Positions 36,249-62,852 of a stretch of 64,000 nucleotides of DNA are shown here, one piece after another. Position 1 is the first letter of the stretch, and each line of letters starts with the position of its first letter. Position numbers and translations under genes: made by a program. The stretch spans positions 1-64,000 of the forward strand of contig QZKU01000019.1 in assembly GCA_003598085.1 (NCBI GenBank), in the 5' to 3' direction. A model generated the notes under the pieces. It saw only the letters and a program-made list of their open reading frames with translations, was not told the origin of the DNA and did not search any database. This DNA comes from Candidatus Abyssobacteria bacterium SURF_5 (GTDB lineage Bacteria; Abyssobacteria; SURF-5).

Positions 36249-36292
36249 TATGCCGTACCTCCCCACTGATAAATAATGCGAAATACTCGCTT

Positions 36293-37609: not shown

Positions 37610-37693
37610 TGACCGATTTCCTCTCTTGCATCAGGGTATGGAAAGAGTAAATGGCGATGCCCTTATCTCCCCTGGGAAGAGCAATTGATTTGA

Positions 37694-44942: not shown

Positions 44943-45389
44943 TCATACGTATGGAGGTCTGCCTTTTGGCCACTGCGTATCGACCTGTTGAGAATACAGT
45001 TCGGACATGATTTTGACGAGTTCGGCGTTCTTCATGAAGATGCGCATATCGCCGCGTATCCTGATTGCTCCGCGCAAGCCGGCTTCGATGAAATCACGCA
45101 TGCCGGCAGCTATTTCTTCGAAAACGGTGGCCGGACCGCTGAAACGGAAGTCAAGTCCCTTGCCGTCCATTGTCTCGGAAAGTTCTTTGTATTCCTGGCA
45201 TTTTCCCTTATCGAACAGGATAAAGAAATATTTCGCCTGTCCGTTGCCGATATACGGTGATTTTCCGTCCCCCGCAATTTCAACGCAAATGCGCCACTGG
45301 CCCTGAGGCGCGCGAGCGGAGATGTCTTCGCGGCTGTTCACCAGCGCCTTCAGCGTGTCGTACCAGTCTATTGAATAGATATCAGCCAT
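44943..45389 (-). CDS. SCP2 sterol-carrier-domain protein
   Basis: A 148-residue protein of the SCP2 fold, a hydrophobic-pocket lipid-binding domain: WRICVEIAGDGKSPYI, then GLDFRFSGPATVFEEIAAGM and GLRGAIRIRGDMRIFMKNAELV follow the family pattern. The ATG at 45389 is preferred; the longer frame would overlap the preceding gene. It is the last gene of the GntR-led operon, 19 bases after a phytoene-desaturase-like gene. By analogy with UbiT, SCP2 proteins can present lipids to membrane-associated enzymes; the bound lipid here is unknown. Confidence 0.8.
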   Translation of the reverse strand: MADIYSIDWYDTLKALVNSREDISARAPQGQWRICVEIAGDGKSPYIGNGQAKYFFILFDKGKCQEYKELSETMDGKGLDFRFSGPATVFEEIAAGMRDFIEAGLRGAIRIRGDMRIFMKNAELVKIMSELYSQQVDTQWPKGRPPYV

Positions 45390-45408
45390 ATTCCCCCCCG
45401 CCAATTTT

Positions 45409-47025: not shown

Positions 47026-47065
47026 TGTTCAGGTATCCTCCCTGCTCATCTCCGGGGAGCCAAGG

Positions 47066-47554
47066 TCATCTTAGCGCGAGAAGCGCCGCCATCCCCAATA
47101 TTACTGCGGCCCCCGCTGCCGCGAGCATCCATCCGACGGGCCATGTCGCAGGCTTGTCGTCAGCCCTCATTTCTGCGGGCAGGCTCATGAATCTGGCCAC
47201 GCGAAACGCAAAAAGCGGGTGTCTCCATGCGGATTCGATTTTGAGCTTCCCGCTCATTATCTTTTCAATTGCTTTTCCTGATCCGCTTGAGGCGGCTTCG
47301 GCAATATCAAAAATGCCTCCCCGCATGGACAAGTCCGCATTCGGAAAGCATCCGCTGGATATCTCTATGCTGTCGCCCTTGAATTGAACAGTCACACCGA
47401 TGTTGCCTTCCGATGCTTCAATAGCCATCTTTCCTCGTATTCTGCAGGCTTGCCTGCGCTTGTATTCACAATCGCCCAGGTTCTGCTCAAAGTACTGGAA
47501 CAACATCATCGCCAGCCCGCTTGGCTCGCCATTTCCTTCAAGACTCACCTTCAC
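47066..47554 (-). CDS. SCP2-domain protein with C-terminal membrane anchor
   Basis: A 162-residue protein: SCP2-like core with GNIGVTVQFKGDSIEISSG, ADLSMRGGIFDIAEAA and KAIEKIMSGKLKIESAWRHP, then a single hydrophobic helix at the extreme C-terminus (VGWMLAAAGAAVILGMAALL). The tail would hold the lipid-binding domain on the membrane. The start is GTG, with GAGGTC upstream. It sits between two phytoene-desaturase-like genes. The anchored SCP2 arrangement is unusual; typical bacterial SCP2 proteins are soluble. Confidence 0.75.
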   Translation of the reverse strand: MKVSLEGNGEPSGLAMMLFQYFEQNLGDCEYKRRQACRIRGKMAIEASEGNIGVTVQFKGDSIEISSGCFPNADLSMRGGIFDIAEAASSGSGKAIEKIMSGKLKIESAWRHPLFAFRVARFMSLPAEMRADDKPATWPVGWMLAAAGAAVILGMAALLALR

Positions 47555-47575
47555 GCCATCGACCTCTACAGGGAG

Positions 47576-49168
47576 TTAGACCTTCTTCCACCATTTTTCC
47601 AGGCCATAATCGTCGGCTATCACCTGGAGTGCATTATATGCGGGAGCGAAAGTGATATACCCGTGCGGATGCTGGGTGGAGCCGCACATGTACAATCCCT
47701 TGATCGGGGTTCTGTATTGGGAAAGGGCAGGGAAGGGGCGCTGTGAAAGCAGGTTGTCGGGCGCAATGGCGCCAAGCATCCAGTCGCCGCGAACCATGTT
47801 CACCAGCCTGTCTGAGATCTCCTTGGGCGTATAGGGAACATATTCGATGATCGCGTTGCGATCCAGATTCGGCGCATATGCGCGCCACTTCGCTATGCAC
47901 CGCTCGGCGTAATCCGTTTTCACTTCGTCCCAGGCATTCTCATTCCCGTCAATCTGAAACGGAGCGAACTGCCTGATGAGACCGGTGTACTTTCCGGTAG
48001 GCGCGTCGGTGGGATCAAAAAGTGAATTGACGGCGCAGTTGAGCTTTGGGTCCGCCAGCTTTCCATTCCTGACCAGCGCGAAGTCCTTATTCAGATCCGA
48101 CAGCGATTCATATCCCACATTCATTACCCATGCCTGGTTGATGTCGGGATCGAAGGCGGCGGCCGTATACTGTGGCGGCTCGTTCATTGCAAGGTGGACG
48201 CTGAACAGCGACCAGTCCTTGTGCCTGCAATTCTTCACCTTCTCGATGAAGAGTTTGTCCGTGATTTCGCTGTCGAGAAATTTCAGAAACGTCTGCTCGA
48301 GATCCACGTTACTCGCGACCAGCTTTTTCGCTTCGATTTGCGAGCCATCCAGCAACTTCACGCCGGCAGCCCGGCCGTCCCTGGTCAGAATCTTTTCGAC
48401 AGGTGCGGCCGGATGCACGATGCCGCCATCCGCAAGCAGGGTCCACCAGAGGGCGTGCGCCAGTTTATGAGATCCACCGATGCAACATTGCCAATTGTCG
48501 ATCTTGCCGGCGAGCAAAGGAAAAGAAATCGCGAGTCCGCGCACGTCGTTACTGTATGCGCATACGGCCGCATGAAATGCCAGCATGGTCTTGATCTTTT
48601 CGTTTTCGAAATGCTGGTTCAGGAAATCATTGATGCTCAGGCTGCGCAGGCGCGCCCGCAGGAACTCGGATTTATCTTCGACTCCCCAGACAGTGAGCGC
48701 ATTTGTAATTTCGTTCAGGTCGATGGGCGGCGCGAACATGAGGGTGCCGACCAGGAGGTCGAGGAATCCTTTCACTTCCCCGTAAAGCCGGAGCCAGGTG
48801 TCGGCGTCCTGTTCCGAAAAGCGAGCCATTGACTGGTACGTCTTGTTCATATCCGTATGGATAGTAAGTGAGGTTCCGTCCCGAAAGACGCTTCCCATTT
48901 GGACCGGGGGGTGGGCATAGGTGAGGCCATGCTCGAAGAGTCTCAGGTCGTCATACACCGGCGAAACACCGACAAGCGTATGATAATTTGAATGGACATT
49001 ATGCAGAAAGCCGGGCCGCGTGAGCTCCTCTGTACAGAGGCCCCCGCCTTCCTCGTGCCTCCTCTCAAAGATGCCGACGCTCCATCCGCACTTCGCGAGA
49101 TAACACCCGAGCGCCATGCCATTATGGCCCGCTCCGATGATCACCGCGTCAAAACTTGCATCAGCCAT
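47576..49168 (-). CDS. Phytoene-desaturase-like NAD(P)/FAD oxidoreductase (first copy)
   Basis: A 530-residue paralogue of the 45409-47025 enzyme. FDAVIIGAGHNGMALGCYLAKCG and LCTEELTRPGFLHNVHSN give the FAD domain; GLYMCGSTQHPHGYITFAPAYNAL is the C-terminal signature. ATG is preceded by GGGGGATGA. It is the first structural gene after the GntR regulator, before the anchored SCP2 protein. Two related enzymes could act on successive bonds of one substrate or form a heterodimer. Confidence 0.85.
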   Translation of the reverse strand: MADASFDAVIIGAGHNGMALGCYLAKCGWSVGIFERRHEEGGGLCTEELTRPGFLHNVHSNYHTLVGVSPVYDDLRLFEHGLTYAHPPVQMGSVFRDGTSLTIHTDMNKTYQSMARFSEQDADTWLRLYGEVKGFLDLLVGTLMFAPPIDLNEITNALTVWGVEDKSEFLRARLRSLSINDFLNQHFENEKIKTMLAFHAAVCAYSNDVRGLAISFPLLAGKIDNWQCCIGGSHKLAHALWWTLLADGGIVHPAAPVEKILTRDGRAAGVKLLDGSQIEAKKLVASNVDLEQTFLKFLDSEITDKLFIEKVKNCRHKDWSLFSVHLAMNEPPQYTAAAFDPDINQAWVMNVGYESLSDLNKDFALVRNGKLADPKLNCAVNSLFDPTDAPTGKYTGLIRQFAPFQIDGNENAWDEVKTDYAERCIAKWRAYAPNLDRNAIIEYVPYTPKEISDRLVNMVRGDWMLGAIAPDNLLSQRPFPALSQYRTPIKGLYMCGSTQHPHGYITFAPAYNALQVIADDYGLEKWWKKV

Positions 49169-49247: not shown

Positions 49248-49991
49248 TCATTTTCCAAGAGCCACGCTTTCCATGCAGTCGTAGTGTTCTTTCATGCATC
49301 TCCTGGCGGAGATGGGATTATGCGATTCGATAGCCTTGAGAATTTTTTTGTGGCCGTCGAAGATTTCTCTGGCGACCTTCTCCAACTTCTTCTCATCCAT
49401 GTTCTGGTATGTCAGGACGAGCGAGCGCGATTGTGCAACCAGTGCGATGAGCATGCTGTAGATCTGGGAGAGGACCGGATTCTGAGCGGCGGCCGCGAGG
49501 GCCCGGTGATAAGATAAATGGATAGCGGCCGGATTCTGCGTGTCTTCCGATTCCTTCACTTTCTGAGCCATCTTCCGAATATGCGCAGGCTTCGCGCGTT
49601 CGGCGGCCAACCCGGCCGTCTCGATGCCCACGATTCTGGCCGATTCAAGCGCCTGTTCGAGAGACGCTGCACCCGTGGTAAGCGACAGGCCGAGATACCG
49701 GTTTTCTTCCGGCCTGCAAATGGTCGTGCCGGGAACATCCCGTCTGATAATTCCGAGGATCTCCAGCGCCTTCATCGCCTCTCGGACCGATCCGCGTCCG
49801 ACTTTGAACGATTCGCAGAGCTCTCTTTCAGGCGGCAGTCTGTCTCCCGCCTTCAGTTTTCCCGTCACGATCATGGAGAGAATCTGGTCGACGATCTCTC
49901 CTGAAAGAGTCGTTTTTTCAACGGGACGGAAATGTAAAGCGCCGTCTTGCGGCGCGGAATCCGCAGACTTGGACGCATTCAGGGTTGCCAT
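49248..49991 (-). CDS. GntR-family regulator, FadR subfamily (FCD domain)
   Basis: A 247-residue regulator. Winged helix at residues 35-95: LSGEIVDQILSMIVTGKLKAGDRLPPERELCESFKVGRGSVREAMKALE, shown only in part here, is the standard GntR signature; the all-helical FCD ligand domain follows with its Asp/His metal-site pattern (HLSYHRALAAAAQNPVL, EHYDCME). The ATG at 49991 has GGAGAGGA at proper distance. It heads the operon of two phytoene-desaturase-like and two SCP2 genes, and a FadR-type operator lies about 100 bases upstream. Ligand unknown; members sense acyl-CoAs, keto acids or lactate. Confidence 0.9.
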   Translation of the reverse strand: MATLNASKSADSAPQDGALHFRPVEKTTLSGEIVDQILSMIVTGKLKAGDRLPPERELCESFKVGRGSVREAMKALEILGIIRRDVPGTTICRPEENRYLGLSLTTGAASLEQALESARIVGIETAGLAAERAKPAHIRKMAQKVKESEDTQNPAAIHLSYHRALAAAAQNPVLSQIYSMLIALVAQSRSLVLTYQNMDEKKLEKVAREIFDGHKKILKAIESHNPISARRCMKEHYDCMESVALGK

Positions 49992-50084
49992 GATCATTCC
50001 TCTCCTGTTCTGATTTCCACTTGCCGGCAAAGTGAAGAGGGCCGGTATTGCGCCGCACCCCCTGAACCGGATTTGCCGCTATTA

Positions 50085-50227: not shown

Positions 50228-51415
50228 TCAGCCGCTCTTGATGCCGAGGATATCCATTACGTCGAGTTCTGAGAGCGGTACGGGCGAAAACATCATACCT
50301 GGTTCGATGACGCACGCAGACACTAATTCCGAAGGCTTTCCTTCGAATTGTCCCATAACATCCTCAAGTCTTGGCAGGCCGATGGTGGATATCATATTTT
50401 CTATTGCATCAATTGCTGCATCGGCAACTGCCTCCTCGCCGGCATAGTCTTCGGGCGCCAGCCCAAAGATGCAAGCGATCTTTCGGAACTTGCCTGATTG
50501 AGCGCTTTTCAGCTTCCTCAGCCCCTGCGGGAGAACTGCGCTGCAGGCGGCGCCATGCGGCACATGACACCTTGCGCCAAGAACATGTCCGATCGCATGA
50601 GCGAAATGAGGCATCGCATGGCTGATTGCCATGCCCGCCATGGTTGCGGCCACGCTCATGCCGGCTCGGGCCTCGTCGTCCTCTCCGTCTTTCACGGCTC
50701 TCGGGAGGAATTTGGCCGCTAATTCCATTGCATAGAGAGAGAGGGAGTCGCTGATAGGACTGGATAGGGTTGACAGATAGGCTTCAATTGAATGACAGAA
50801 TGCATCTATCCCCGTGACAGCGGTCAGATCCGGCGGCATCGAGTAGGTGAGCAGGGGATCGACGAGCGCGACGTTTGGACACATGTTGGCGCTTATCACC
50901 ACCCGTTTGGAGGAGTCATCGCCATGGGTGAATACCGCCATAGAGGTTACCTCGCTGCCAGTGCCGGCCGTGGTGGGAATACATAGAAGCGGCGGAAGAT
51001 TCGGTGGCGCTTGGCGCTCCTGCGTCAAATCGTATTCCCGGATTGACCCGCCTCCCCCGATGATGCAACCGGCCATCTTGGCGGTATCGATCGAGCTGCC
51101 TCCGCCAATGGCAATAATGCCATTACATTCATTCTCCCGGTAAGCATTGACGCATGCGCTCACTGTTCTTTCGGGCACTTCCGGCTCGACATTGGCCCAC
51201 ACCGCGTGTTTGATCTTCGCGCCCTCCAGGGTTTCTACGGCTGTGGCCAATCCTTCTGATTCCGCCGTGATCGGGCCAGTGACAATCAAAGCTTTCTCTA
51301 TCTCAAGATCGCGCGCGGCGGCGCCCGTTGAGGTTACGACACCGTTGTTCAAAAATAGTTTTGTTTGCATCACAAAATTTAATTCATACCGTGCATCACC
51401 CGCAAAGTAAGACAT
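50228..51415 (-). CDS. Iron-containing alcohol dehydrogenase
   Basis: A 395-residue group III (iron-dependent) alcohol dehydrogenase, an NAD(P)H-linked oxidoreductase of short alcohols, lactaldehyde or semialdehydes. GIIAIGGGSSIDTAKMAG binds the cofactor; ALVDPLLTYSMPP, TGIDAFCHSIEAYLS and the metal-ligand block PHFAHAIGHVLGARCHVPHG are all present. The ATG at 51415 is chosen because AAGGAGGA lies eight bases upstream and it gives the family length; the longer frame adds 96 unrelated residues. It is divergent from the cytochrome operon. Confidence 0.92.
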   Translation of the reverse strand: MSYFAGDARYELNFVMQTKLFLNNGVVTSTGAAARDLEIEKALIVTGPITAESEGLATAVETLEGAKIKHAVWANVEPEVPERTVSACVNAYRENECNGIIAIGGGSSIDTAKMAGCIIGGGGSIREYDLTQERQAPPNLPPLLCIPTTAGTGSEVTSMAVFTHGDDSSKRVVISANMCPNVALVDPLLTYSMPPDLTAVTGIDAFCHSIEAYLSTLSSPISDSLSLYAMELAAKFLPRAVKDGEDDEARAGMSVAATMAGMAISHAMPHFAHAIGHVLGARCHVPHGAACSAVLPQGLRKLKSAQSGKFRKIACIFGLAPEDYAGEEAVADAAIDAIENMISTIGLPRLEDVMGQFEGKPSELVSACVIEPGMMFSPVPLSELDVMDILGIKSG

Positions 51416-51685
51416 GAGGCAATCCTCCTTCGGTTTGGAAAACCAGGAAATTTTGATTCGTATATCGCAGGGTGTCTCCCAGCTTCTCAGACCCGGGCAG
51501 AGTTGCGGGCTCTTTGTAGGATTTTCATTTGACGACCATATAAATTTTACACAGCGGGACATAGGCTTTACCCTTTCCTCCGAGCCCGGCATCATCCAAA
51601 GCCCTTGGTTCCAAGTAGTTTCCTGACGATGCCGCGCCTGCGTGCTCTTGATGGCATACATATTGAATATCAAGAATGAAGCCAT
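51416..51685. other. Divergent region between the alcohol dehydrogenase and the cytochrome operon
   Basis: About 270 bases. No operator comparable to the FadR-type site was found; a small inverted repeat CTTGG-TT-CCAAG lies at 51604-51615. Promoter boxes are unclear on both strands. Confidence 0.35.
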
Positions 51686-52723
51686 ATGCAAAGACGAACC
51701 CAAAGAGAGTCTTTATTGAGGGAATCAGCATACCCGGGAAGAGCGACTCTGGCTTTATTGCTCTCATTCGGCGTCTTTCTCATTGGGGGATGCGCCTCCG
51801 AACATTTCCGGATGCTGACCAGGGTGGAGCAGCATTATCCCTCCGCTTCCCAATGCGGCGAGTGTCACATCGAGATCTACAAAGAGTGGACGGAGTCGCT
51901 CCATTCCAAGAGTTACTCCAGTGACAGCTTCCGTCTCGCGACGAATGATCATTCCTTTGAGGACTGTCTTGGTTGTCATACGCCCGTTTCCATTCATGCC
52001 GCGGGCGTACCAGCCGCAAGAAATGCCATCCGCGAAGAGGGCGTGACCTGTATTTCATGCCATTTCAATCAGGGAACACTTATCGGTCCCATCGAACCTA
52101 CGGCCACGGTCGTGCCGCACGAGGTCGGCGTCGAAAAAGAATTCTTCACGACCAGTTCGCTCTGCGGGACATGCCATCAGGGAACATATGAAGAGTGGCG
52201 CAACGCTGCAATCGAGAACAAGAAAAATTGTCAGGACTGTCACATGCCGAAGGTGAAGAGAAAGGTCACCCAGGCTGACAGCTTAACATCGAAGATCTTG
52301 GTGAGCATGGAGGAGGAGCACATGCTCAGGCGGCACACGTTCAGTTTCGAAAAAATGGAAGCGCCCGAAGAAGCCGTTTCTTTGGATGTCAGGTGGGAAT
52401 GCGAAGAGCAGGGGGGCTTCGCCGAAGTGAACGTGATCAATCTTCTTCCCCACTTCATCCCGACCGGCGATTTCGGCTTTCGGAAAGCGACATTGTCCTT
52501 AACAGTGAAGTCGGACGACGGGAAGACGCTGCTCGAGCAGGCGGTGGACATTTATAAGGAAACGCAGACTGCTCTGAGGCCTCTGGAGCGACGCGCATTC
52601 CGATTTTCACTACCTCTTGAGGCAAGCCGGCTGGAAATTGTATTGAAGAGAGAAGGTCAAGATGGAGCACATCGATTTATCATCGATCAGCACCTGTTCG
52701 TCAAGGGCGAGACGAACTGGTAA
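51686..52723 (+). CDS. Pentaheme cytochrome c lipoprotein
   Basis: A 345-residue exported cytochrome with five CXXCH heme sites (CGECH 57, CLGCH 94, CISCH 122, CGTCH 160, CQDCH 182) in a cytochrome c554-like N-terminal domain, and a beta-rich C-terminal domain of about 130 residues. A lipoprotein signal ends FLIGGC (Cys 36), so it should be anchored in a membrane facing the periplasm. It opens a nine-gene co-directional run. No strong Shine-Dalgarno is visible. The next gene overlaps its 3' end by about 60 bases. It probably exchanges electrons with the cytochrome b or the 16-heme protein that follow. Confidence 0.85.
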   Translation: MQRRTQRESLLRESAYPGRATLALLLSFGVFLIGGCASEHFRMLTRVEQHYPSASQCGECHIEIYKEWTESLHSKSYSSDSFRLATNDHSFEDCLGCHTPVSIHAAGVPAARNAIREEGVTCISCHFNQGTLIGPIEPTATVVPHEVGVEKEFFTTSSLCGTCHQGTYEEWRNAAIENKKNCQDCHMPKVKRKVTQADSLTSKILVSMEEEHMLRRHTFSFEKMEAPEEAVSLDVRWECEEQGGFAEVNVINLLPHFIPTGDFGFRKATLSLTVKSDDGKTLLEQAVDIYKETQTALRPLERRAFRFSLPLEASRLEIVLKREGQDGAHRFIIDQHLFVKGETNW

Positions 52724-53360
52724 AATTCGCCGTTTTTCTGCGACCGAACGCCTGTTGCACTGGTCGTTCGCCCTCCCGCAAATCGTCCTGATGGTGACAG
52801 GGGGGTTGCTGCTATTCTCCGCCTCACGCTCGGGTGAAAGCGCATCCAAATTGAACCTGACGACGCTCCACAGGATCGCGGCCGTATGTTATATCCTCGC
52901 GCCTTTCCTGGTCTTCATGAGTGGGGACGCGAAAATCCTCCTCAGAAACATCAAGCTGGCATTCAGTTGGGACCGCAACGATTTCAGGTGGTTCTATGGC
53001 TCGTTCATGAAACTCTTCATCCCTTCTACAACCATGCCCGCCGTTGCAAAATTTAACGCCGGACAGAAGCTCAACATGTTGATTGTAATGAGCATGGGCG
53101 TTGGTTTTGTTGTTTCGGGACTTATCATGTGGTTATCCGACGGCCTGTTGCTGGCGTGGTTCATCCATGCCTCGTTGTTCCCGTTTGCGGTTCTCACGGT
53201 ATTGGGTCACATGTACATGGCTGTTCTGCATCGATCCACGCGCCCCTCGTTTTGGGCAATCATTCATGGGGACGTCGACAGAGAATGGGCTGATCATCAT
53301 CATCCTCGATGGGCAGGAACAGTGGAAGAACCTTGCACAGATGAAGATCCTCAATCATAA
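52662..53360 (+). CDS. Diheme cytochrome b, formate-dehydrogenase gamma (FdnI)-like
   Basis: A 232-residue inner-membrane protein with four transmembrane helices of the FdnI/hydrogenase cytochrome b type. RRFSATERLLHWSFALPQIV, LHRIAAVCYI, the FdnI-specific KFNAGQKLNM, FIHASLF and LGHMYMAVLH supply the heme-binding His residues. Such subunits connect periplasmic electron carriers to the membrane quinone pool. The 5' end overlaps the pentaheme gene and the 3' end the 16-heme gene by 20 bases, so all three are co-translated. No catalytic formate dehydrogenase subunit is nearby; the multiheme proteins probably replace it. Confidence 0.85.
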   Translation: MEHIDLSSISTCSSRARRTGKIRRFSATERLLHWSFALPQIVLMVTGGLLLFSASRSGESASKLNLTTLHRIAAVCYILAPFLVFMSGDAKILLRNIKLAFSWDRNDFRWFYGSFMKLFIPSTTMPAVAKFNAGQKLNMLIVMSMGVGFVVSGLIMWLSDGLLLAWFIHASLFPFAVLTVLGHMYMAVLHRSTRPSFWAIIHGDVDREWADHHHPRWAGTVEEPCTDEDPQS

Positions 53361-54966
53361 AAATCTCGCCGCTGTGGCGCGTGCAATCATGCTGGTTGTT
53401 CCGCTTGTCCTCGGGACGGAGGCAAAGGCGGATTTGCCTTCCTTCGCCAGGTTTCTCTCTCCCGGACAGCTCACAAAATCCCACGCTCATGAAAAGAAGT
53501 TAACGGATTGTTACGCGTGCCATACGCTCACCCGCGGAATAGACGACTCTCGGTGCCTGGATTGCCACAAGGACGTCAAGGAGAGGCTTTCGAGAAGGGA
53601 CGGCTATCACGGCAAACTCCAGGGAAGCTGCACAGAATGCCATACCGATCACAAAGGGTTGGAGTCGGATATCATCAATGACTTTGACCCACAAGCTTTC
53701 AACCACAGGCTGTCGAATTATCCTTTAACAGGCAAACACGCCGAAATCCATTGTGATAAATGTCACGCCAAACAGCACCCGCACGACGAACCGCACATTC
53801 ATTATATCGGACTCAAAGCAACCAAATGCACGAGCTGTCATAAGAATCCACACCCGCAAGCGATTAGTATCGATTGTGAAAAATGTCATTCAACCGACGG
53901 CTGGTCCGGGCCGGCGCTGAAGTACACACACAGCCGCGATTCCCAATATAAATTACTGGGAAAACATCAGGAGGCATCATGCGAAAAATGCCATCGTGGT
54001 CCCGAGCCGGCAACTCAATTCATTGTTCCGAACACCGCTTGTGTGGATTGTCACGCGGACAAACATAACGACCAGCTCTCAAAAAGCTGCGAAAAATGTC
54101 ACGACGAAACGGGGTGGACCGGCAGAAGCACGAATTACTCCCATGCACTCGACTCCAATTATAAGCTGGTGGGAAAACATCAGGAATTGAGTTGCGACAA
54201 GTGCCACAAACCCGGCGAACCAATCGCAAAACTTGCGGCCGCTAAATTCAAGGATATTGGGACCGATTGTATTAACTGTCATACGGACGAGCACCAGGGA
54301 CAACTGTCAACACAATGCCGGAACTGTCACGGCGAATTCGGATGGAAGGGCGCTTTCCTCACATTCAACCATGACGAGCAATCAAATTTCAAGTTGGACG
54401 CCATCCACAACTCCGTTGGCTGCGCGGATTGTCATGAACACGAGACATACAAGCCTCTCAAAGCCGCTTGTGTCGATTGCCACGCCGAGTATGCGGAAAT
54501 AATGGCCGGCTCCTCCGGCATGACTGCCGGCAAGGCCCTGCCGGACCCACATTGGAAACGCATTCGCTGTGACCAGTGTCATGACAGTCGCGAAGAAGGA
54601 CAGCGAATCGTCAGCTATCAGGATAGGTGCGTCCAATGTCACAACCCTCGATATGGGCTTTTACTGCTCGACTGGATGAAGGCTTGGTTTGATAGCCGGG
54701 TTGAGACACACGCGCTTTTTCAACAAATCCAGGAACAAGGATTAACAATGCCCGCAGAGTTTCAACAATTTCCCGAGAGGATCAAGCAAGTGGAAAAAAT
54801 TGGGGCTCACAATTTCCTGTTGGCGCCGCTCGAATGGAAAGCTTTAAAAGACGACCTTGAGCGTGAAGCCTCAAAAAGCCTGACGAGTAAAGCGAACAAC
54901 AGTGACGCCCGGCAGTTGCTGGAAACGGCGTCAGAGAATTCAGCGGCGGAAGGATCGAAAAAATGA
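53341..54966 (+). CDS. 16-heme cytochrome c (cytochrome c3 family-type repeats)
   Basis: A 541-residue periplasmic cytochrome with sixteen CXXCH motifs (including CYACH, CLDCH, CTECH, three CEKCH, two CDKCH and two CVDCH). The middle is built of repeated units with the pattern GKHxxxxCxxCH, HxxQLxxxCxxCH and GWxxxxxxxxH. The preferred start at 53341 gives a clean signal peptide (AIMLVVPLVLGTEAKA); the longer frame overlaps the cytochrome b gene. Length and heme number place it among multiheme conduits for long-range electron transfer. Its last 110 residues are heme-free and helical. It overlaps the next gene by ATGA. Confidence 0.88.
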   Translation: MKILNHKNLAAVARAIMLVVPLVLGTEAKADLPSFARFLSPGQLTKSHAHEKKLTDCYACHTLTRGIDDSRCLDCHKDVKERLSRRDGYHGKLQGSCTECHTDHKGLESDIINDFDPQAFNHRLSNYPLTGKHAEIHCDKCHAKQHPHDEPHIHYIGLKATKCTSCHKNPHPQAISIDCEKCHSTDGWSGPALKYTHSRDSQYKLLGKHQEASCEKCHRGPEPATQFIVPNTACVDCHADKHNDQLSKSCEKCHDETGWTGRSTNYSHALDSNYKLVGKHQELSCDKCHKPGEPIAKLAAAKFKDIGTDCINCHTDEHQGQLSTQCRNCHGEFGWKGAFLTFNHDEQSNFKLDAIHNSVGCADCHEHETYKPLKAACVDCHAEYAEIMAGSSGMTAGKALPDPHWKRIRCDQCHDSREEGQRIVSYQDRCVQCHNPRYGLLLLDWMKAWFDSRVETHALFQQIQEQGLTMPAEFQQFPERIKQVEKIGAHNFLLAPLEWKALKDDLEREASKSLTSKANNSDARQLLETASENSAAEGSKK

Positions 54967-56102
54967 GAGGAATGTCCATGCTCCAAAGGACCTCAGACAA
55001 AGTTGTGGGAAACATCTTGGATGGCATGCAGACTCATCTGAGAAATATACTCTCGCTGCATTTTCATCCCGAACATGGGAGCCCGTACTGGCTCAGACGA
55101 CAGACAGAACTCGGGATTGATGTTGCAAGTGAAGTGAAAGAAGTGGACGATCTTTGGAAGCTGGGGTTGATGGATGACGAGTCACTGCGAGGCCTGTCAG
55201 TGGAAGAGTTTGTTCCTCGGGCATTACTAAAGGAAAAGCAAACGTTTGTTCTTGGTGACAGCGCAGGCTCAACCGGCGCGCCTAAGCTTACCGCCTACTC
55301 AGAAGAGGAGTTCAGCGGCGCGTTTATAGAGCCTTTTTCCCGTGCCGCGAATGCGATGCGATTTCCACGCGAGGAAAACTGGCTGTATATAGGTCCTTCC
55401 GGCCCACACATAATCGGAAAGGCCGCGCGCGCCTGCGCCAATCGACTGAAAAGCATGGACCCATTTTCGGTGGATTTCGATGCGCGATGGGCTAAGAAAA
55501 TGAAATCCGGCTCAATGGGGAGTCGGAGATACCTTGAGCACGTAATCGAGCAGGCTCTGGGAATCCTGGACAGCCAGGACGTTGGAGTGCTTTTTACAAC
55601 ACCTTCCGTCTTGGCGGCTCTGAGCGAGGGGATGACCAAATCTCAGCGCCTGAAAATCAGAGGCGTGCATTATGGAGGAGTCGCTCTGACCCATGAGAGG
55701 TACGATGCTTTTCGGCAAGACATGTTCCCCAACGCGGTTCATATTTCAGGCTACGGCAATACCCTGTTTGGAATGTGTCCGGAACTGTTTCCCGTCGAGC
55801 CTCGGCCAATCGACTACTATCCACACGGCAATCGACTTGTCATTCGCCTGATCCCCCTGTGCGAGGGAGCCATCCCTGACGAGCGAGTGCTCCAAACAAG
55901 GGTCGCCTACGGCGAGCGAGGAAGGATCATGTTTCACCGACTGGATTCCAGCGGACTGATCGTCAACATGTGCGAACGCGATAGCGCCGAGCGCATCCCG
56001 CCCCCTGAGAGAGTTGAACATCTGGGTTTTGTGCAAGACGGGTTCCGTTGCCCGGAGCCGTTGCCGGTCATGAGGAATCGGTTGAAGACCGGACTGTATT
56101 GA
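54963..56102 (+). CDS. PaaK/LuxE-like adenylate-forming enzyme
   Basis: A 379-residue AMP-binding protein. SAGSTGAPK is the nucleotide-phosphate loop of the superfamily; HISGYGNTLFGMCPE and YGERGRIMFHRLDSSGLIVNMCERD resemble the later motifs. Full PaaK-type CoA ligases are about 430 residues with a C-terminal cap; this protein ends soon after the hinge, like LuxE acyl-protein synthetases (about 370). It may therefore activate an acyl or aryl acid to an adenylate and pass it to a protein or small acceptor rather than CoA. GGAAGGAT precedes the overlapping ATG. Confidence 0.65.
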   Translation: MRGMSMLQRTSDKVVGNILDGMQTHLRNILSLHFHPEHGSPYWLRRQTELGIDVASEVKEVDDLWKLGLMDDESLRGLSVEEFVPRALLKEKQTFVLGDSAGSTGAPKLTAYSEEEFSGAFIEPFSRAANAMRFPREENWLYIGPSGPHIIGKAARACANRLKSMDPFSVDFDARWAKKMKSGSMGSRRYLEHVIEQALGILDSQDVGVLFTTPSVLAALSEGMTKSQRLKIRGVHYGGVALTHERYDAFRQDMFPNAVHISGYGNTLFGMCPELFPVEPRPIDYYPHGNRLVIRLIPLCEGAIPDERVLQTRVAYGERGRIMFHRLDSSGLIVNMCERDSAERIPPPERVEHLGFVQDGFRCPEPLPVMRNRLKTGLY

Positions 56103-56136
56103 GGGATATTTGCGGTAAGGAAAGCAGGTGCTCTTG

Positions 56137-58170
56137 ATGAATCGAAGAATGACAAAGCCGGAACTGCTTGCTCCTGCAGGTACGTTGCAGACCTTGAAAG
56201 AGGTAACAAGCGCGGGGGCGGACGCCGTGTATTGCGGCGGCAAGAATTTCAACATGCGTCTTCACCGCTCTGACTTCAACCTCTCAGCAGAGGAACTGGC
56301 TGAAGCAGTCAAGTGGTGTCACGAGCGCGACAAACGGATATATGTAACCGTCAACAGTCTTCTCGGGGACGAGGAACTGAGCCGGCTTTCCCGCTACCTC
56401 GAATTTCTTGAAAGCATCGGCGTCGACGCAATCATTTTGCAGGACCTCGGGGTTCTCCATCTGTCCCGCGAATTAGGTTTGAAGCTCGAAAAGCATGCCA
56501 GCACGATGATGAACGTGCATAGCAGCGCCATGGCGACTTCCCTGGGCGAATTGGGGATTACGCGCATCATCACGTCGCGGGATATCACGCTTGCTCAAGT
56601 GCAGTCGATGTGGCGGGAAACCGGCCTCGAATTCGAATACTTTATCCATGGCGATATGTGCACGTCTCAGAGCGGGCAGTGTTTCACCAGCGGCATCCTC
56701 TTCGGAGAAAGCAGCAACAGGGGGCGGTGCCTCAAGCCTTGTCGCTGGCCATATGACCTTGTCGACGCGCAGAACGGCGACTCTGTCAAAAACGGCCGCC
56801 CGGGACCATATCTGCTCGCTCGAAACGACATGTGCATGTTTCAAAATATACCGGAGATGGTGAATGCCGGAATATGCTCATTCAAAATCGAGGGCAGGAT
56901 GCGTCCGTCTGAATTTCTGAAACCGATTGTGCAAGCCTATCGCGAGGAGATTGACAGGTATTGGGAAGCTCCCTGTTCATACCGCAAGAACGGAGACGCG
57001 TACAGCGACCTTCAAAACAACCGGGTCCGCGATTTTTCGTCCTGTTATGCATTTGGCAATCCCGGATCGTCTTCCATCGGATTTTCCGGCAAGCGGGAGC
57101 CGCGCCTCTTCAGCCATGCTCCCGGGATTCGGTTCCAGAACGCAAAGGGAATGGCCGACCTTGCAGCATCGGCTTCCCGCAATAGTGATCAACAGCACGC
57201 CTGCAATCCGGTTCCTCGCCTGGCAGTGCGGGCAGGCTCTCCCGAGGCTGCGTATGGCGCGCTGGAAGCGGGTGCGGACCTCGTTTATGTCGCAGGAGAA
57301 GTCTTCTTCGAGGAGGGAACGCGATGGACCGGCGGCTCGATCGCGGAATTCGCCTCGTTCGCCCGGGCATCGGGAAGGAACGCCGGAATCGCCACGCCGA
57401 GAATCAGCACGGAGCGAGAATTGTGGGAACTCGAGCGCCTGTTCCAGGGTCTACCAATTGATCTAATCGATTCCGTCCTGGCCACAAACCTGGGAGCGCT
57501 TCGGCTCGCCAATACATATTTTCCGGGGCAGGTTGTCGCCGATTTCAATTTTTCGATTCTTAATATCGGAAGCATCAAGCTCATGAGGAGCTTGAACGTA
57601 CAACGGTTCACTCCTGCGGCGGAAGCCTCCCTCGAGGAAGCTCTGTCTCTCAGTCGGCAGCGCATTCTGCCCGAAGAGCTTGTTGTTCACGGACCGGTAT
57701 TGGGAGCCGTTCTGGAGCATTGCCTGGCTGCTGCGAACATCGATTATGTTCCCCCAAACGGCAATTGCCCCATGCCCTGTCGCAGTAGACAGCAGTATGC
57801 GTTGAAAGACGAGCAGGGACAGATATATCCACTGATGATCGACCAGTATTGCCGAAATCACCTGCTGCTTCCTTTTGATATCTGTCTGCTTCCCCTCTTG
57901 AGGAGTGTTCTAAAGGCAGGAGTTCATGTTCTTAGAATTGAGGGGCAATATTACGAGGCGGGGCATCTCAAGAGCATCGTTGAACTGTATCGACGGGAAG
58001 TAGACCGGATTGCCGGAAGCAACGACTGTCCTTCGCTCCGCGAGAACGATTACGAAAAGTTGATCCGGATCAGCCCGCGACCGTTCAGCATGGGGGCTTA
58101 TATGCACGGAGTGTTGGGGAGTCTTGGCCACTTGATGAAGGAGGAAATATCGTGCACAGAGATACGATAG
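56137..58170 (+). CDS. Double-module U32 protein (RlhA/UbiU-UbiV-like)
   Basis: A 677-residue U32-family protein. Module 1 (residues 1-280) begins KPELLAPAGTLQTLKEVTSAGADAVYCGG and carries cysteines at 175, 182, 198, 202 and 233 within HGDMCTSQSGQCFTSG, NRGRCLKPCRWPY and ARNDMC. Module 2 (about 365-630) restarts with a second barrel-like repeat (AGSPEAAYGALEAGADLVYV) and cysteines at 529, 544, 548 and 572. U32 proteins once thought to be peptidases include RlhA (rRNA hydroxylation) and UbiU/UbiV (oxygen-independent quinone hydroxylation), which hold 4Fe-4S clusters on such cysteines. The usual DUF3656 insert seems reduced. GTG at 56128 is the alternative start. An SCP2 gene lies two genes on. 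Confidence 0.85.
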   Translation: MNRRMTKPELLAPAGTLQTLKEVTSAGADAVYCGGKNFNMRLHRSDFNLSAEELAEAVKWCHERDKRIYVTVNSLLGDEELSRLSRYLEFLESIGVDAIILQDLGVLHLSRELGLKLEKHASTMMNVHSSAMATSLGELGITRIITSRDITLAQVQSMWRETGLEFEYFIHGDMCTSQSGQCFTSGILFGESSNRGRCLKPCRWPYDLVDAQNGDSVKNGRPGPYLLARNDMCMFQNIPEMVNAGICSFKIEGRMRPSEFLKPIVQAYREEIDRYWEAPCSYRKNGDAYSDLQNNRVRDFSSCYAFGNPGSSSIGFSGKREPRLFSHAPGIRFQNAKGMADLAASASRNSDQQHACNPVPRLAVRAGSPEAAYGALEAGADLVYVAGEVFFEEGTRWTGGSIAEFASFARASGRNAGIATPRISTERELWELERLFQGLPIDLIDSVLATNLGALRLANTYFPGQVVADFNFSILNIGSIKLMRSLNVQRFTPAAEASLEEALSLSRQRILPEELVVHGPVLGAVLEHCLAAANIDYVPPNGNCPMPCRSRQQYALKDEQGQIYPLMIDQYCRNHLLLPFDICLLPLLRSVLKAGVHVLRIEGQYYEAGHLKSIVELYRREVDRIAGSNDCPSLRENDYEKLIRISPRPFSMGAYMHGVLGSLGHLMKEEISCTEIR

Positions 58171-59459
58171 TCGCCGGTATCGGTCCGAGTGAAATAGTTC
58201 GAAAGAAGAAAGAGTATCTCATCCCCTGCGTCTATCATTTCTACAAGGAGCCAATGCAACTTGTCCGGGGCAAGGGTCAGTACCTGTTCGACCACACGGG
58301 AAAGCAGTATCTCGACTGCTATTCGGGTGTGTCAGTCGTCAACGCCGGCCACTGCCATCCCTATATTGTGGACCGCATCTGCGAACAGGTGAGGACGCTG
58401 CAGCACACCACAACGATCTATCTTACGCAGCCGATCGTAGACCTCGCGGAACGGCTGGCTGCGATCATGCCGGGTGACATCAAGAAGAGTTTCTTTTGCG
58501 CAAGCGGCTCGGAAGCCAATGAAGGCGCCGCGTTGTTGGCGCAGATTTATACCGGTCGGAGCGAAATGCTGGCGTTGCGCCACGGCCTCCACGGGCGGAC
58601 GAAGCTCACGATGAGCCTCACCGGCCTGTCATTCTGGCGTACGGATCCTGCGCCGGTAGGCGGCATTACTCATGTGGCCGGCCCGTACTGTTATCGCTGT
58701 CCGCTGGGTCTTTCGGTTGAATCATGCGAGATCGAGTGTGCGCTGGAGGTCAAGGCGGCCATAACGACGAGCACTTCCGGCCGCGTGGCGGCATTCTTTG
58801 CTGAGCCTATTCAAGGCAACGGCGGCATAATCACTCCTCCGCCGGGTTATTTCGAGCGAGTGAGGGAAATACTCGATCATTATGAAATCCTTTTTGTTTC
58901 CGACGAGGTGCAAACCGGTTATGGTCGAACGGGTAAGATGTTCGGCTGCCAGCATTACGATATCATGCCCGACATCGTCACCTCCGCGAAGGCGTTGGCT
59001 AATGGAACCCCCATCGGCGCGTTTTCGACGACCGATTCCATAGCGGCTTGCTTTACACGTCCCAGCGCATCAACCCTTGGCGGAAATCCCGTCTCCAGCA
59101 CTGCAGCCCTCGCCACGCTGGACGTAATTGAGGACGAAGGATTGGTATCAAGAGCGGAATTTCTGGGAGGGGTACTGAAACAAAGGTTCCTGGAACTGCA
59201 GGACCGGCACCGCTTGATAGGCGATGTCCGAGGCAAGGGATTAATGCTCGGGATCGAGCTTGTTGGGGAGGAAAAGGCTCCGGCCGCTGAAGATACCGAT
59301 CATATTCTGGAATTACTGAAAAACGCCGGTGTGCTTGCCGGCAAAACAGGCGCCGCAAGAAACGTGCTCACTTTCCAACCTCCGCTCGTGATCGAGGAAG
59401 AAGACATCGATCGGTTGACTGAGGCACTGGAAAGCGTCTTCTCGTTTGTGGAACCTTGA
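58152..59459 (+). CDS. Class III PLP aminotransferase (AGXT2/omega-aminotransferase-like)
   Basis: A 435-residue class III aminotransferase. FFCASGSEANEGAALLAQ and LRHGLHGRTKLTMSL hold the cofactor, VSDEVQTGYGRTGK the pyridine Asp, and TSAKALANGTPIGAF the Schiff-base Lys. It has an additional cysteine-containing stretch CYRCPLGLSVESCEIEC (about residues 177-197), found in the alanine-glyoxylate (AGXT2-like) branch. Substrates in the family are omega-amino acids, amines and glyoxylate. Start GTG with AAGGAGG upstream overlaps the U32 stop by 19 bases. Its link to the neighbouring lipid genes is inferred from the operon. Confidence 0.88.
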   Translation: MHRDTIVAGIGPSEIVRKKKEYLIPCVYHFYKEPMQLVRGKGQYLFDHTGKQYLDCYSGVSVVNAGHCHPYIVDRICEQVRTLQHTTTIYLTQPIVDLAERLAAIMPGDIKKSFFCASGSEANEGAALLAQIYTGRSEMLALRHGLHGRTKLTMSLTGLSFWRTDPAPVGGITHVAGPYCYRCPLGLSVESCEIECALEVKAAITTSTSGRVAAFFAEPIQGNGGIITPPPGYFERVREILDHYEILFVSDEVQTGYGRTGKMFGCQHYDIMPDIVTSAKALANGTPIGAFSTTDSIAACFTRPSASTLGGNPVSSTAALATLDVIEDEGLVSRAEFLGGVLKQRFLELQDRHRLIGDVRGKGLMLGIELVGEEKAPAAEDTDHILELLKNAGVLAGKTGAARNVLTFQPPLVIEEEDIDRLTEALESVFSFVEP

Positions 59460-59473
59460 AAGGAGAGATCGAA

Positions 59474-59902
59474 ATGGATTCTGTACACGAAAGGACTTCA
59501 TCCGACACAATCTCAGCCGGGCTGCCCGATACGGTTACCGACAGCCGCGAATACTTCAATGAATTCCTGCCGCAATTGATCCGGCAAAAGGAGGACATCA
59601 CGATCGGCAATACGAACTTTACATGCATGTTCCGCATCGAGGGAGAGAAGGGAGGCAACTGGCTCTTCGAAATCAAGAAAGGCAAGATCAAGCCCCCGGT
59701 TCCCTGCGGCGAAGTCGAAGCGCCCTGTGTCATCACGATGGACAACGCCACGCTGATGCAGATCATAACCGCAAAGGTGCAGCCCGCTCATGCATTCTTC
59801 CGGGGGCACGTCAAGGTCAAGGGCGGAATGCAAATGCTGATAAAGTTGTCCACTCTCCTTCCGATTTATTTTCGCAAACATACTTTACGGCCCAAAAGGT
59901 AG
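59474..59902 (+). CDS. SCP2 sterol-carrier-domain protein
   Basis: A 142-residue soluble SCP2 protein: NFTCMFRIEGEKGGNWLFEI, GEVEAPCVITMDNATLMQII and FFRGHVKVKGGMQMLIKL are typical of the fold, which encloses a lipid pocket. The ATG at 59474 has AAGGAGA seven bases before. It lies 14 bases after the aminotransferase and 15 before an RND exporter. With U32 proteins nearby the comparison is UbiT, the SCP2 protein of the UbiU/UbiV system; the C-terminal hydrophobic patch (STLLPIYF) could contact the membrane. Third SCP2 gene in the window. Confidence 0.82.
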   Translation: MDSVHERTSSDTISAGLPDTVTDSREYFNEFLPQLIRQKEDITIGNTNFTCMFRIEGEKGGNWLFEIKKGKIKPPVPCGEVEAPCVITMDNATLMQIITAKVQPAHAFFRGHVKVKGGMQMLIKLSTLLPIYFRKHTLRPKR

Positions 59903-59917
59903 GAACGGTCTCCGCTC

Positions 59918-62164
59918 ATGTTCGTTCTTTACAGCCGCCTCATTACTTGTCACTCCCGCAAAATCCTTCGGGCGCTGACATGCATTACCATTGTCATGGG
60001 AATTTTCGTTTTCAGGCTTGAGACGAATAATTCGATTGAGACGTGGTTGCTCGATGACGACCCGCGGCGGCTTTCCTACGAGAAATTTGTGGAGATGTTT
60101 GGTACCGAAGAGTTCGTGCTGGTGGTCTACTCGGATACCGACCTGTTTTCGAGAGAATCGTTCCAGTTGAATTATCAGATTTCCGAGAAAGTCGAAAGCA
60201 TCGAAGGGGTTGCTCGGGTTTGGAGTCTCTCCGAAGTTTATCGGAACATCGTATCGCGGCTGCCCGTCGGGGCAGCGCTGCCGCTGCATCGATTCAAAGA
60301 GGGAGTCCTGGGACATCCGCTGTTTACGGGAAACTTGATCTCCGACGACGGCGTGACAACCGCGATCGTGGCGGTGCTGACGCCCGACGGGACGAAGGAC
60401 CGAAACGGGACGGTGCGCGCGATACGACAAGCGGCGGCAGAGGTTTGTCCGGACAAGGATCTGCGGTTTGCCGGGCCGCCCGTCATGAGCGCCGAACTCG
60501 ACCGCATTGCGCGACGCGACCCGCGTGTCTTCACTCCATTGGTGGTGATCATGGCGGCGGGTATCCTGCTCGCCATGTTTCATCGCCCGGCAGGCGTCAG
60601 GATCCCTCTTGCGGTCGCGGGCATGAGCATTGTCTGGTCGCTCGGAATCTTTTCGCTGATAAGCGGCACAATGAACATGGTGCTCGCCGTCATGCCGCCG
60701 TTGGTTCTCGTGGCCGCCGTCGGAGATTCCATTCACCTGCTTTGCCGCTACCGGCATCATATCCGAAGCAAACCGCCCGAAAGAGCAGTGGTTGAGGCGG
60801 TAAGAGATGTATGGAGGCCGTGCCTGATGACAAGCCTCACAACTGCGGTCGGCTTCGGGTCGCTTGCTGTAAGCCATTTCTCGCCGGTCAGAAGCTTTGG
60901 CCTGGTTTCGATGCTCGGGATCGCATTCGCCTTTGTCATAACTATGTTGCTGGCTCCCGCTTCAATAGCGTTTAAGCGCGGGGCCGGGTTATCCGCCGCC
61001 TCCGAGGATGTTAGTCCTCTGAATAAGATTCTGTCCTTTATAAAGACGGTAAACGCCAGGCGGCCGGTATGGATTCTGTCCGCTTTCGCCTTGTTGAGCA
61101 TCGTCGGCCTCCTGGGTATAATTCGGCTGAATGTGGAGGCAAATACTCTAAAGTTTTTTCCCGCCGACGGCGAAATCAGGCGGACATACAAGTTCATTGA
61201 AGAAAACCTGACGGGACTCAGTCCATTCGAGATATTGTTGCGGGGGGACGAACTGGGGGAACCCGCAACGCTGGCTGCGATCGATCGCATCCAAGCCTAT
61301 CTTGCCGAACAACCTCACATCACCCATTCCTTTTCCGTCCGCTCCTTGCAGGCTGGTTTTGCGACCCCTCACGCACTTGCTCCCGCATCGGAAGGTCTGC
61401 GGATCGCGGCGCTCTTTAAAGACCTTGAGGATTCTTTCATCAATCGGGAGCGCAGCGCGACTCACATCTCAGGCCGCGGCCTCACAATGAATTCCATCCT
61501 TTACGAGCGCGCCATGGACGACATTCAGTCGTTCGTGAACGCGGTCTTGCCCGAGGGGATCACCGCAGAGTTGACAGGGGTCGTCCCGCTGATCGCTTCA
61601 ATGGACAGATACCTCCTCGTGACCTTCATGAAGAGTTTTGCAATGGCCTTGCTGATTATCGGCGTGATCATGTCATTAAACTTCCGGTCGATCCGCTTCG
61701 GACTGCTCAGCATGATACCGAATGCGATCCCCATCGTTGCCGTTCTCGGCCTCATGGGGTTCTTGGCGATCGACCTCAGTCCGGCGACGGTGACAGTCGC
61801 CTCCGTTTCCCTCGGCCTTGTTGTGGACGACACTATTCATTACATGCATCGATACTTCCGTTATCTGGAGAACGGAAGTGCGCCTTCGGCGGCAGCCGCC
61901 ATGGCCACAGCCACGGTGGGCGCCCCCGCGATTTACACTACATTGGTATTGGGGGCCGGCTTCATTGTGATGGTTGTTTCCGACTTTGGGCCGACCAGGC
62001 TTTTCGGGCTTCTTTCGGTTTTCAGCATAATGCTCGCCCTGCTATGCGATCTGTTTCTGCTGCCCGTACTGCTGGTGAGGTTTACGCCGGTGACGCCTCT
62101 GGAGCCGAAACCCGCTCTGGTAGTCAGCACGCATGCGTTGGAGGAATATCAGGATGCTTCTTGA
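59918..62164 (+). CDS. MMPL/RND-family exporter (HpnN-like)
   Basis: A 748-residue inner-membrane protein with twelve transmembrane helices in two homologous halves, each with a periplasmic domain. It begins with a first helix then RLETNNSIETWLLDDDP; later helices include VVAAVGDSIHLLCRYRHH and VSLGLVVDDTIHYMHRYFRY, the RND TM4/TM10 pattern with paired Asp for proton coupling. MMPL/SSD-type members export lipids, hopanoids or siderophores. Neighbours suggest a lipid product. AGGAACGG precedes the ATG. The hydrolase gene after it overlaps by 11 bases. Confidence 0.87.
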   Translation: MFVLYSRLITCHSRKILRALTCITIVMGIFVFRLETNNSIETWLLDDDPRRLSYEKFVEMFGTEEFVLVVYSDTDLFSRESFQLNYQISEKVESIEGVARVWSLSEVYRNIVSRLPVGAALPLHRFKEGVLGHPLFTGNLISDDGVTTAIVAVLTPDGTKDRNGTVRAIRQAAAEVCPDKDLRFAGPPVMSAELDRIARRDPRVFTPLVVIMAAGILLAMFHRPAGVRIPLAVAGMSIVWSLGIFSLISGTMNMVLAVMPPLVLVAAVGDSIHLLCRYRHHIRSKPPERAVVEAVRDVWRPCLMTSLTTAVGFGSLAVSHFSPVRSFGLVSMLGIAFAFVITMLLAPASIAFKRGAGLSAASEDVSPLNKILSFIKTVNARRPVWILSAFALLSIVGLLGIIRLNVEANTLKFFPADGEIRRTYKFIEENLTGLSPFEILLRGDELGEPATLAAIDRIQAYLAEQPHITHSFSVRSLQAGFATPHALAPASEGLRIAALFKDLEDSFINRERSATHISGRGLTMNSILYERAMDDIQSFVNAVLPEGITAELTGVVPLIASMDRYLLVTFMKSFAMALLIIGVIMSLNFRSIRFGLLSMIPNAIPIVAVLGLMGFLAIDLSPATVTVASVSLGLVVDDTIHYMHRYFRYLENGSAPSAAAAMATATVGAPAIYTTLVLGAGFIVMVVSDFGPTRLFGLLSVFSIMLALLCDLFLLPVLLVRFTPVTPLEPKPALVVSTHALEEYQDAS

Positions 62165-62852
62165 GGAAGGCGTTACTTTCATGAGGGATTGGTTTCATTT
62201 GCGAGGCAGACTTTATTACGATGAGAGCCTCATTCCCACACGGGCCGTACTCCTCTGTTCTCCGCACCCCCATCTGGGAGGGGACATGGAGAACAACGTG
62301 ATTGTCCATATTGCGCGCACCCTCAGTGCGCACGGATGCGCAGTCATGACTTTCGATTATGCGGGAGTCGGCAACAGCGACGGCCCCTGGACAGATGAAA
62401 TGGAGCAATTTGAGTTCTGGGAGTCGATCATGGATTCCGAGGACTACGGAATTGTGGTCCCCGATGCCGAGGCGGCCTTCGATCACCTGCTGAAGTGTCT
62501 GCCGTCACAGCCGCACGTTGTTTTGGTCGGCGGATATTCGTTCGGGGCTGTCACGGCTCTCCGCGTTGCCTGTTCACGAAAGGTGGACGGAGCCTTCGGG
62601 ATATCGCCGCCGGTCGGCGAGTATGACCTGAGTTTCGTTGAGTCAATCGAGTGCCCGAAATACTTCATTTCATCCGATCAGGACCTTGCGTGCGATATAG
62701 GTGAAATAAAAGCGTTCTGCGAGCGGATCAATTCGAGCGAGAGGCTTTCGATCATACCCGGTGGGGATCATTTCTTCGTGGGACAGGAATTCCGCCTCTG
62801 TTCGGTTCTCATGGATCATCTGAAGCCGCATTTTGGCCTCAGCCCCGCTTAG
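62154..62852 (+). CDS. Alpha/beta hydrolase
   Basis: A 232-residue serine hydrolase. VVLVGGYSFGAVTALRVA holds the nucleophile (GXSXG), YFISSDQDLAC the acidic residue and PGGDHFFVG the catalytic His, the full triad; the N-terminal SPHPHLGGDMENNV and FDYAGVGNSDG place it with the small dienelactone-hydrolase/YfhR-like group. It may cleave an ester or thioester of the pathway. GGAGG lies before the ATG, which is preferred to the in-frame ATG at 62133. Last gene of the nine-gene run, convergent with the following regulator. Confidence 0.85.
   Translation: MLLEEGVTFMRDWFHLRGRLYYDESLIPTRAVLLCSPHPHLGGDMENNVIVHIARTLSAHGCAVMTFDYAGVGNSDGPWTDEMEQFEFWESIMDSEDYGIVVPDAEAAFDHLLKCLPSQPHVVLVGGYSFGAVTALRVACSRKVDGAFGISPPVGEYDLSFVESIECPKYFISSDQDLACDIGEIKAFCERINSSERLSIIPGGDHFFVGQEFRLCSVLMDHLKPHFGLSPA

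Follow-up and report, generated by a model that had tools for sequence, protein, structure and literature searches.

Oxygen-independent hydroxylation of quinone rings has been described for the UbiUVT proteins, which work with an SCP2 helper and are reported to take the oxygen from prephenate (PMC11574389). UbiU-UbiV carries two Fe-S clusters (PMC6747719), and the UbiT-UbiU-UbiV system has been reported as confined to proteobacteria (PMC6747719, PMC10470549). Here we describe a nine-gene operon from Candidatus Abyssobacteria bacterium SURF_5 that resembles this system in encoding an SCP2 partner and a pair of U32 domains that carry cysteine sets of the Fe-S type. However, its U32 domains are fused, its partner enzyme is an aminotransferase, its relatives occur in hosts that are futalosine-type or pathway orphans, and its scores lie under the UbiU and UbiV cut-offs. 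A second comparison is the synthesis of rhodoquinone by RquA (PMC9814641), because a low-potential aminoquinone in anaerobes would result in both cases; in rhodoquinone the amine makes the potential about 160 mV lower (PMC13386864). RquA is a SAM-using methyltransferase homologue that lacks PLP, whereas the operon combines a PLP-dependent class III aminotransferase with a U32 protein, and no methyltransferase-type family, and hence no RquA, is present among its nine proteins.

Two further systems share genomic surroundings with the genes considered here. The futalosine menaquinone pathway (MqnA-E, P, L, M; PMC4746308) has UbiA/UbiD/UbiX end steps and neighbourhoods in common with them, but a U32-aminotransferase step would be added here, also in genomes where MqnC is absent. 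Listeria-type flavin-based extracellular electron transfer (EET) is comparable in that Firmicutes pairs of the same U32 and aminotransferase genes lie within Ndh2, EetA/EetB, ApbE, HepT and UbiA loci. None of Ndh2, EetA/B, ApbE or HepT is encoded beside the operon in the window (the whole 64,000-nucleotide stretch of DNA analysed), and SURF_5 has multihaem cytochromes there instead. A 2026 survey concluded that many Bacillota and other lineages seemingly lack a quinone pathway and that other quinones are possibly undiscovered (PMC13386864). We found no description of the present module in the papers searched on U32 proteins with quinones, EET or anammox.

The host genome (5.1 Mb, 98.5% complete) belongs to a sparsely sampled lineage. 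All nine open reading frames are present on the plus strand of the window at 51,686-62,852, and their successive junctions measure -62, -20, -4, +25, -19, -4, +15 and -32 bp, which bears out the operon claimed in an earlier note on this DNA. The unit is bounded upstream by a divergent Fe-ADH gene (50,228-51,703) and downstream by a convergent NtrC-type gene. Terminator-like sites occur at chance level (16 found versus 14.7 expected), and none lies in an operon junction. We regard the nine-gene operon and its conservation, documented below, as virtually certain. The gene families named in the earlier note hold with the exception of the ligase subtype, which is EhpF-like rather than PaaK/LuxE-like.

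The first three genes encode predicted electron carriers. The product of g1 (51,686-52,723; 345 aa) is a pentahaem c-type cytochrome with five CXXCH motifs and Cytochrome_C554/C7 matches, and its lipobox-like FLIGGC predicts a lipoprotein. The second gene (g2; 52,662-53,360) encodes a b561/FdnI-type cytochrome b, probably a quinone-reactive membrane subunit, that matches Ni_hydr_CYTB (PF01292, 56 bits) and scores 82 bits against the FdnI-type model TIGR01583, under its cut-off of 115.85. The third (g3; 53,341-54,966) encodes a 16-haem periplasmic cytochrome c (16 CXXCH; Cytochrome_C7/c3), whose likely start is the ATG at 53,341, which gives a signal peptide, and not the mechanically assigned TTG at 53,101.

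At the centre of the operon are a U32 protein and an aminotransferase. The 680-aa product of g5 (56,128-58,170) matches PF01136 in two stretches (Peptidase_U32, 325 bits) and is a fused double U32 protein, a putative UbiU/UbiV-like hydroxylase, although it reaches the cut-off of neither curated family (159.9 of 440 bits for UbiU and 40 of 275 for UbiV). In its first domain, C178-X6-C185-X15-C201-X3-C205 reproduces the U32-oxidase motif CX6CX15CX3C (PMC11574389) and is kept in 79 of 79 homologues. Four cysteines in the second domain (C532/C547/C551/C575) are present in SURF_5 and about 16 homologues and are elsewhere lost as a unit. Because they are kept or lost together, this second set appears to behave as expected of Fe-S cluster ligands. 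An AF2 model of g5 is a double barrel (pLDDT 76, pTM 0.80), for which Foldseek returned only generic TIM barrels apart from U32 peptidase 5d88, which ranked 32nd; a PDB sequence search with g5 gave no useful match. The adjoining gene g6 (58,152-59,459; 435 aa) encodes a class III PLP aminotransferase (Aminotran_3, PF00202, 338 bits) in which K280, D251, E252 and R403 are invariant, with the catalytic Lys (K280) and the substrate-binding Arg (R403) found in 58 of 58 sequences. Judged by these residues, the class III PLP site is intact.

The two genes lie side by side at about 60 loci, most of them from Bacillota, and these loci point to the pathway involved. A quinone gene (UbiA/UbiD/UbiX/Mqn) lies within the fetched stretch at 34 of the 60 paired loci, UbiA itself at 31 and at least two flavin-EET genes at 22. 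NCBIfam models confirmed MqnE, MqnC, MqnL (655 bits; cut-off 496), an MqnP-like UbiA, HepT and UbiX near pairs. The ligase, SCP2 and MMPL genes are all absent from the Firmicutes pairs, and the roles of these three proteins are thus less constrained. In a tree of g5 plus g6, the SURF_5, anammox, Auribacter and Victivallaceae sequences form one fully supported clade within Bacillota diversity, with a support of 0.10 for the exact placement of SURF_5 inside this ligase-bearing clade. This nesting indicates that the ligase-bearing version derives from a pair that is older; by sequence comparison, the core of double U32 protein and aminotransferase is much older and more widespread than the full set.

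Variants of the core were also encountered. Rumen Selenomonadaceae (L016, L019, L020, L023-L025, L028-L034, L037-L039 and L041) carry a double U32 gene without an adjacent class III aminotransferase gene of the g6 family, and the one genome of this type that was tested has UbiA. In Negativicutes, the pair comes after a gene for a TrpX-like ABC substrate-binding protein that has no obvious signal peptide; in a MAG of Syntrophomonadaceae, this protein and UbiX are read in a single frame (L014:9071-9940, L013:8418-9956).

The association with quinone genes extends to whole genomes. We used an even sample of 200 genomes from the phylum of C. drakei, in which a full-length double U32 protein was defined as a match of over 600 bits or one split match. 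UbiA is present in 27 of 27 genomes with the double U32 protein and in 46 of the 173 others (p = 4e-14 by a Fisher test that ignores phylogeny; n = 200). Among the 136 genomes that lack both MqnC and MenD, the corresponding counts are 13/13 and 8/123 (p = 4e-13, again ignoring phylogeny). None of the 11 MenD-positive genomes in the sample has a double U32 protein. MenD is likewise absent from all 34 genomes searched for it, most of which have the pair, while MqnC exceeds its cut-off in 18 of these 34. UbiA exceeds its cut-off in all 15 of the MqnC-less genomes with the pair or double U32 protein that were searched for it, typically within a UbiD-UbiA-UbiX-NMT1/SsuBC locus that often includes HepT, EetA, ApbE and Ndh2. 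SURF_5 encodes MqnE-MqnA-MqnC together and one UbiX-UbiA pair elsewhere, and lacks MenD. UbiA is also present in Scalindua, whereas Auribacter and Victivallaceae have no UbiA over the model cut-off; their prenyltransferase may be divergent, which is the only explanation we can offer.

Because the core sits in quinone and EET loci and the double U32 protein tracks UbiA, we propose that it modifies an isoprenoid quinone, and consider it probable, from these sequence associations, that the operon acts in isoprenoid quinone biosynthesis. The double U32 protein with its aminotransferase marks pathway-gap genomes that keep UbiA/UbiD/UbiX, and thus provides a concrete gene set for testing. Separately, we noted Bacillota with a UbiD-UbiA-UbiX-SsuABC/NMT1 locus, often accompanied by HepT, EetA/B, ApbE and Ndh2 (L047, L068, L072, L076, L106, L108-L113, L118 and L119), in which MqnC and MenD are absent except for the MqnC-positive Paenibacillus of L068. 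This locus is a candidate for an unassigned quinone pathway, which perhaps uses an imported aromatic acid.

The fuller gene set recurs in anammox bacteria. Searching 246 Planctomycetota genomes with a g4 profile yielded close matches (about 500 bits or more) in ten, and all ten also have the double U32, class III aminotransferase and MMPL genes. The core is therefore present in ten further genomes, and is neither unique to SURF_5 nor split elsewhere into unrelated units, either of which the earlier note had named as refuting its proposal. Most of the ten also have SCP2, NAD_binding_4 reductase and cytochrome b genes, and seven have a pentahaem cytochrome. An HzsA-type frame is present in eight, which are therefore anammox bacteria; one more HzsA genome carries a g4 fragment at a contig end. 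HZS_alpha (PF18582) was dropped as a clean anammox marker since it matches 41 genomes; only frames of 809-844 aa were counted as HzsA, and these occur in 13 genomes, of which nine have the cluster (one as the contig-end fragment).

With g5 as query, three loci from anammox bacteria (Scalindua, Brocadiaceae) were recovered. Coverage is best for L004, where a single plus-strand block holds homologues of g1 and of g3 through g9, while L005 and L078 stop at contig ends. The g1 homologue in anammox clusters is 31% identical (E 2e-46), and those of g8 are 32% identical over more than 700 aa. Loci from Auribacter and Victivallaceae (L021, L026) carry g4-g5-g6-g9 together with MqnA, MqnE, MqnC and MqnD in a single run; NCBIfam models confirmed MqnE and MqnC, and MqnA and MqnD were assigned by eye. 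The clusters of Scalindua, Auribacter and Victivallaceae include homologues of g9, and the Auribacter cluster has an SCP2 match. Neither g4 nor the double U32 gene is present in the two same-family genomes searched. Since most of the set is conserved in anammox genomes, we regard it as more than a chance assembly. In Scalindua, a second transporter of the MMPL type is encoded near MqnA-MqnC (L105:4281-6806).

In SURF_5, the pentahaem, b561-type cytochrome b and 16-haem genes precede the biosynthetic genes. The order is the other way round in most anammox clusters, where genes for a b6-type cytochrome b, a g1-like pentahaem, a 10-haem and another multihaem protein come after the biosynthetic genes, with a petD-like subunit gene in some; adjacent multihaem genes are missing at three anammox-type loci. 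That different cytochrome b families occupy the same position suggests a dedicated quinone-to-cytochrome route, and we lean slightly towards a dedicated coupling of the modified quinone to the adjacent cytochromes. The anammox Rieske/cytochrome b complexes (PMC12954380) are similar in that cytochrome b and multihaem c subunits are encoded together, but the present clusters have no Rieske gene and are linked to biosynthetic genes instead. We set aside identity with the known complex kuste4569-4574, as neither a Rieske nor an FAD subunit was seen in the clusters. The quinone of K. stuttgartiensis is reported to be mainly MK-7, and the anammox membrane protein that passes hydrazine electrons to the quinone pool has yet to be identified (PMC12954380). 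By joining quinone-modifying genes to cytochrome b and multihaem cytochromes, the anammox cluster becomes a candidate for hydrazine-electron entry, although this link is speculation.

In the mechanism that we infer, including its order of steps, amine product, prephenate donor and directions of transport and electron flow, the double U32 protein would add a hydroxyl group to the ring of a quinol or of the quinol's aromatic precursor, with prephenate as the presumed oxygen donor, as in UbiUV. The aminotransferase would then exchange a keto or hydroxyl group for an amine to yield a low-potential aminoquinone, a rhodoquinone analogue. The SCP2 protein would hold lipid intermediates as UbiT/UbiJ does, the EhpF-like ligase and the hydrolase would activate and release an aromatic carboxylate intermediate, the MMPL protein would shift lipid across or between membranes, and g1-g3 would carry electrons between the modified quinone and periplasmic or extracellular partners. 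A hydroxylase followed by a transaminase on a quinone ring, giving an aminoquinone, would be the simplest reading by analogy, and we give an amine-bearing product a little under an even chance. For the locus as a whole, the best explanation, which we favour by a modest degree, is an anaerobic modified menaquinone-type quinone coupled to cytochrome b and multihaem c cytochromes. We suggest more tentatively still that fused U32 proteins and PLP aminotransferases define a new anaerobic class of isoprenoid aminoquinones in Bacillota, anammox bacteria and other phyla, with a dedicated cytochrome complex in anammox bacteria and SURF_5. If true, such a class would extend to bacteria thought to be quinone-free.

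Much of the biochemistry first suggested for this DNA survives in that scheme. Adenylation, O2-independent U32 hydroxylation and transamination are supported, at the level of sequence, by the EhpF match, the Cys motif and the PLP site; the proposed lipid-handling pair is matched by SCP2 (PF02036) and MMPL/HAE3 families; and redox coupling to the quinone pool through cytochromes agrees with the placement of cytochrome b and multihaem genes beside the biosynthetic genes in SURF_5 and most anammox clusters. The substrate has to be revised: the core lies in UbiA/UbiD/UbiX/Mqn/EET loci, which points to a quinone or its aromatic precursor rather than to an acid on a lipid carrier.

The ligase may indicate a different origin for the amine. 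A Pfam search with g4 (54,963-56,102; 379 aa) gave no family match, but a g4 family profile aligns full-length with EhpF (PDB 3l2k/3hgu; E 6e-55; positions 4-356 of 356), motifs included. EhpF, an atypical ANL enzyme without the C-terminal domain, acts in griseoluteic acid/phenazine biosynthesis, and its substrate is a phenazine carboxylate; g4 shares this architecture but lies in another operon and probably acts on another aromatic acid. Lower-scoring EhpF-like ligases occur in 61 of the 246 Planctomycetota genomes. At planctomycete loci L151-L155, the neighbours of such ligases are aldehyde dehydrogenase genes, with Fe-ADH genes as well at some of these loci; together they likely form a carboxylate reduction unit. 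At a locus in genome G043 (L087:13415-17256), an NAD_binding_4-SCP2 fusion, an EhpF-like ligase, a YceI-domain protein and an alpha/beta hydrolase are encoded together, with neither a U32 nor an aminotransferase gene; by gene content, the system's second half occurs here as a module of its own.

Given these ligase neighbours, we kept an aldehyde-based alternative, in which the ligase would adenylate an aromatic carboxylate (e.g. the 6-carboxylate of 1,4-dihydroxy-6-naphthoate), an NAD_binding_4 reductase would form the aldehyde and the aminotransferase would convert it to an aminomethyl group. U32 hydroxylation would be separate, and the product would still be a quinone with another substituent. 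Thioester-reductase-type NAD_binding_4 genes adjoin the SCP2 or ligase gene in anammox and Auribacter clusters, and class III aminotransferases commonly use aldehydes, their usual substrates being aldehydes or simple ketones and not quinone rings. However, no such reductase is encoded among the nine genes of SURF_5, and at about 55 Firmicutes loci, where ligase and reductase are both missing, the aminotransferase has U32 as its partner. We consider this route unlikely.

Less probable again is the model of the earlier note, in which an acid would be adenylated, hydroxylated and transaminated on a lipid carrier and then exported; the product would here be a new amino-lipid, and the cytochromes would only supply or remove electrons. 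The enzyme families are as that model gave them, and lipid export is common among MMPL/HAE3 transporters such as g8 (59,918-62,164; PF03176, TIGR00921). The SCP2-domain protein encoded by g7 (59,456-59,902; 148 aa; 52.5 bits) is of the UbiT/UbiJ accessory type, and its gene accompanies the double U32 gene in SURF_5 and anammox clusters but not beside Firmicutes pairs; the alpha/beta hydrolase gene g9 (62,133-62,852; PF12146/PF00561) completes the operon. Yet no acyl carrier or acyltransferase is found among the nine genes, and the core pair tracks UbiA and sits in quinone and EET loci without ligase, SCP2 or MMPL genes. As a hopanoid transporter of the HpnN type, g8 was rejected, scoring far under the cut-offs (84 of 752 and 40.6 of 1100 bits). 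It is very improbable that the double U32 protein modifies tRNA or rRNA like TrhP/RlhA, with its aminotransferase and quinone-gene linkage incidental: its best NCBIfam score is for TrhP and the Cys motif is the same, but that score (177 bits) is under the cut-off of 534, SURF_5 has a separate single-domain U32 protein, and UbiA co-occurrence is perfect amid recurrent UbiA/UbiD/Mqn neighbourhoods.

Elsewhere in the window, a minus-strand unit at 44,943-49,168 contains a second SCP2-domain gene adjoining two FAD/CrtI-like oxidoreductase genes and is followed by a GntR/FCD regulator gene (49,248-50,030) and the Fe-ADH gene that diverges from the operon; this neighbourhood is possibly a second lipid or quinone-related unit. 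DAO-type FAD oxidoreductases are encoded at 402-1,877 on the plus strand and at 36,293-37,609 on the minus strand, the latter being one of three consecutive minus-strand open reading frames of similar length at 34,926-39,010.
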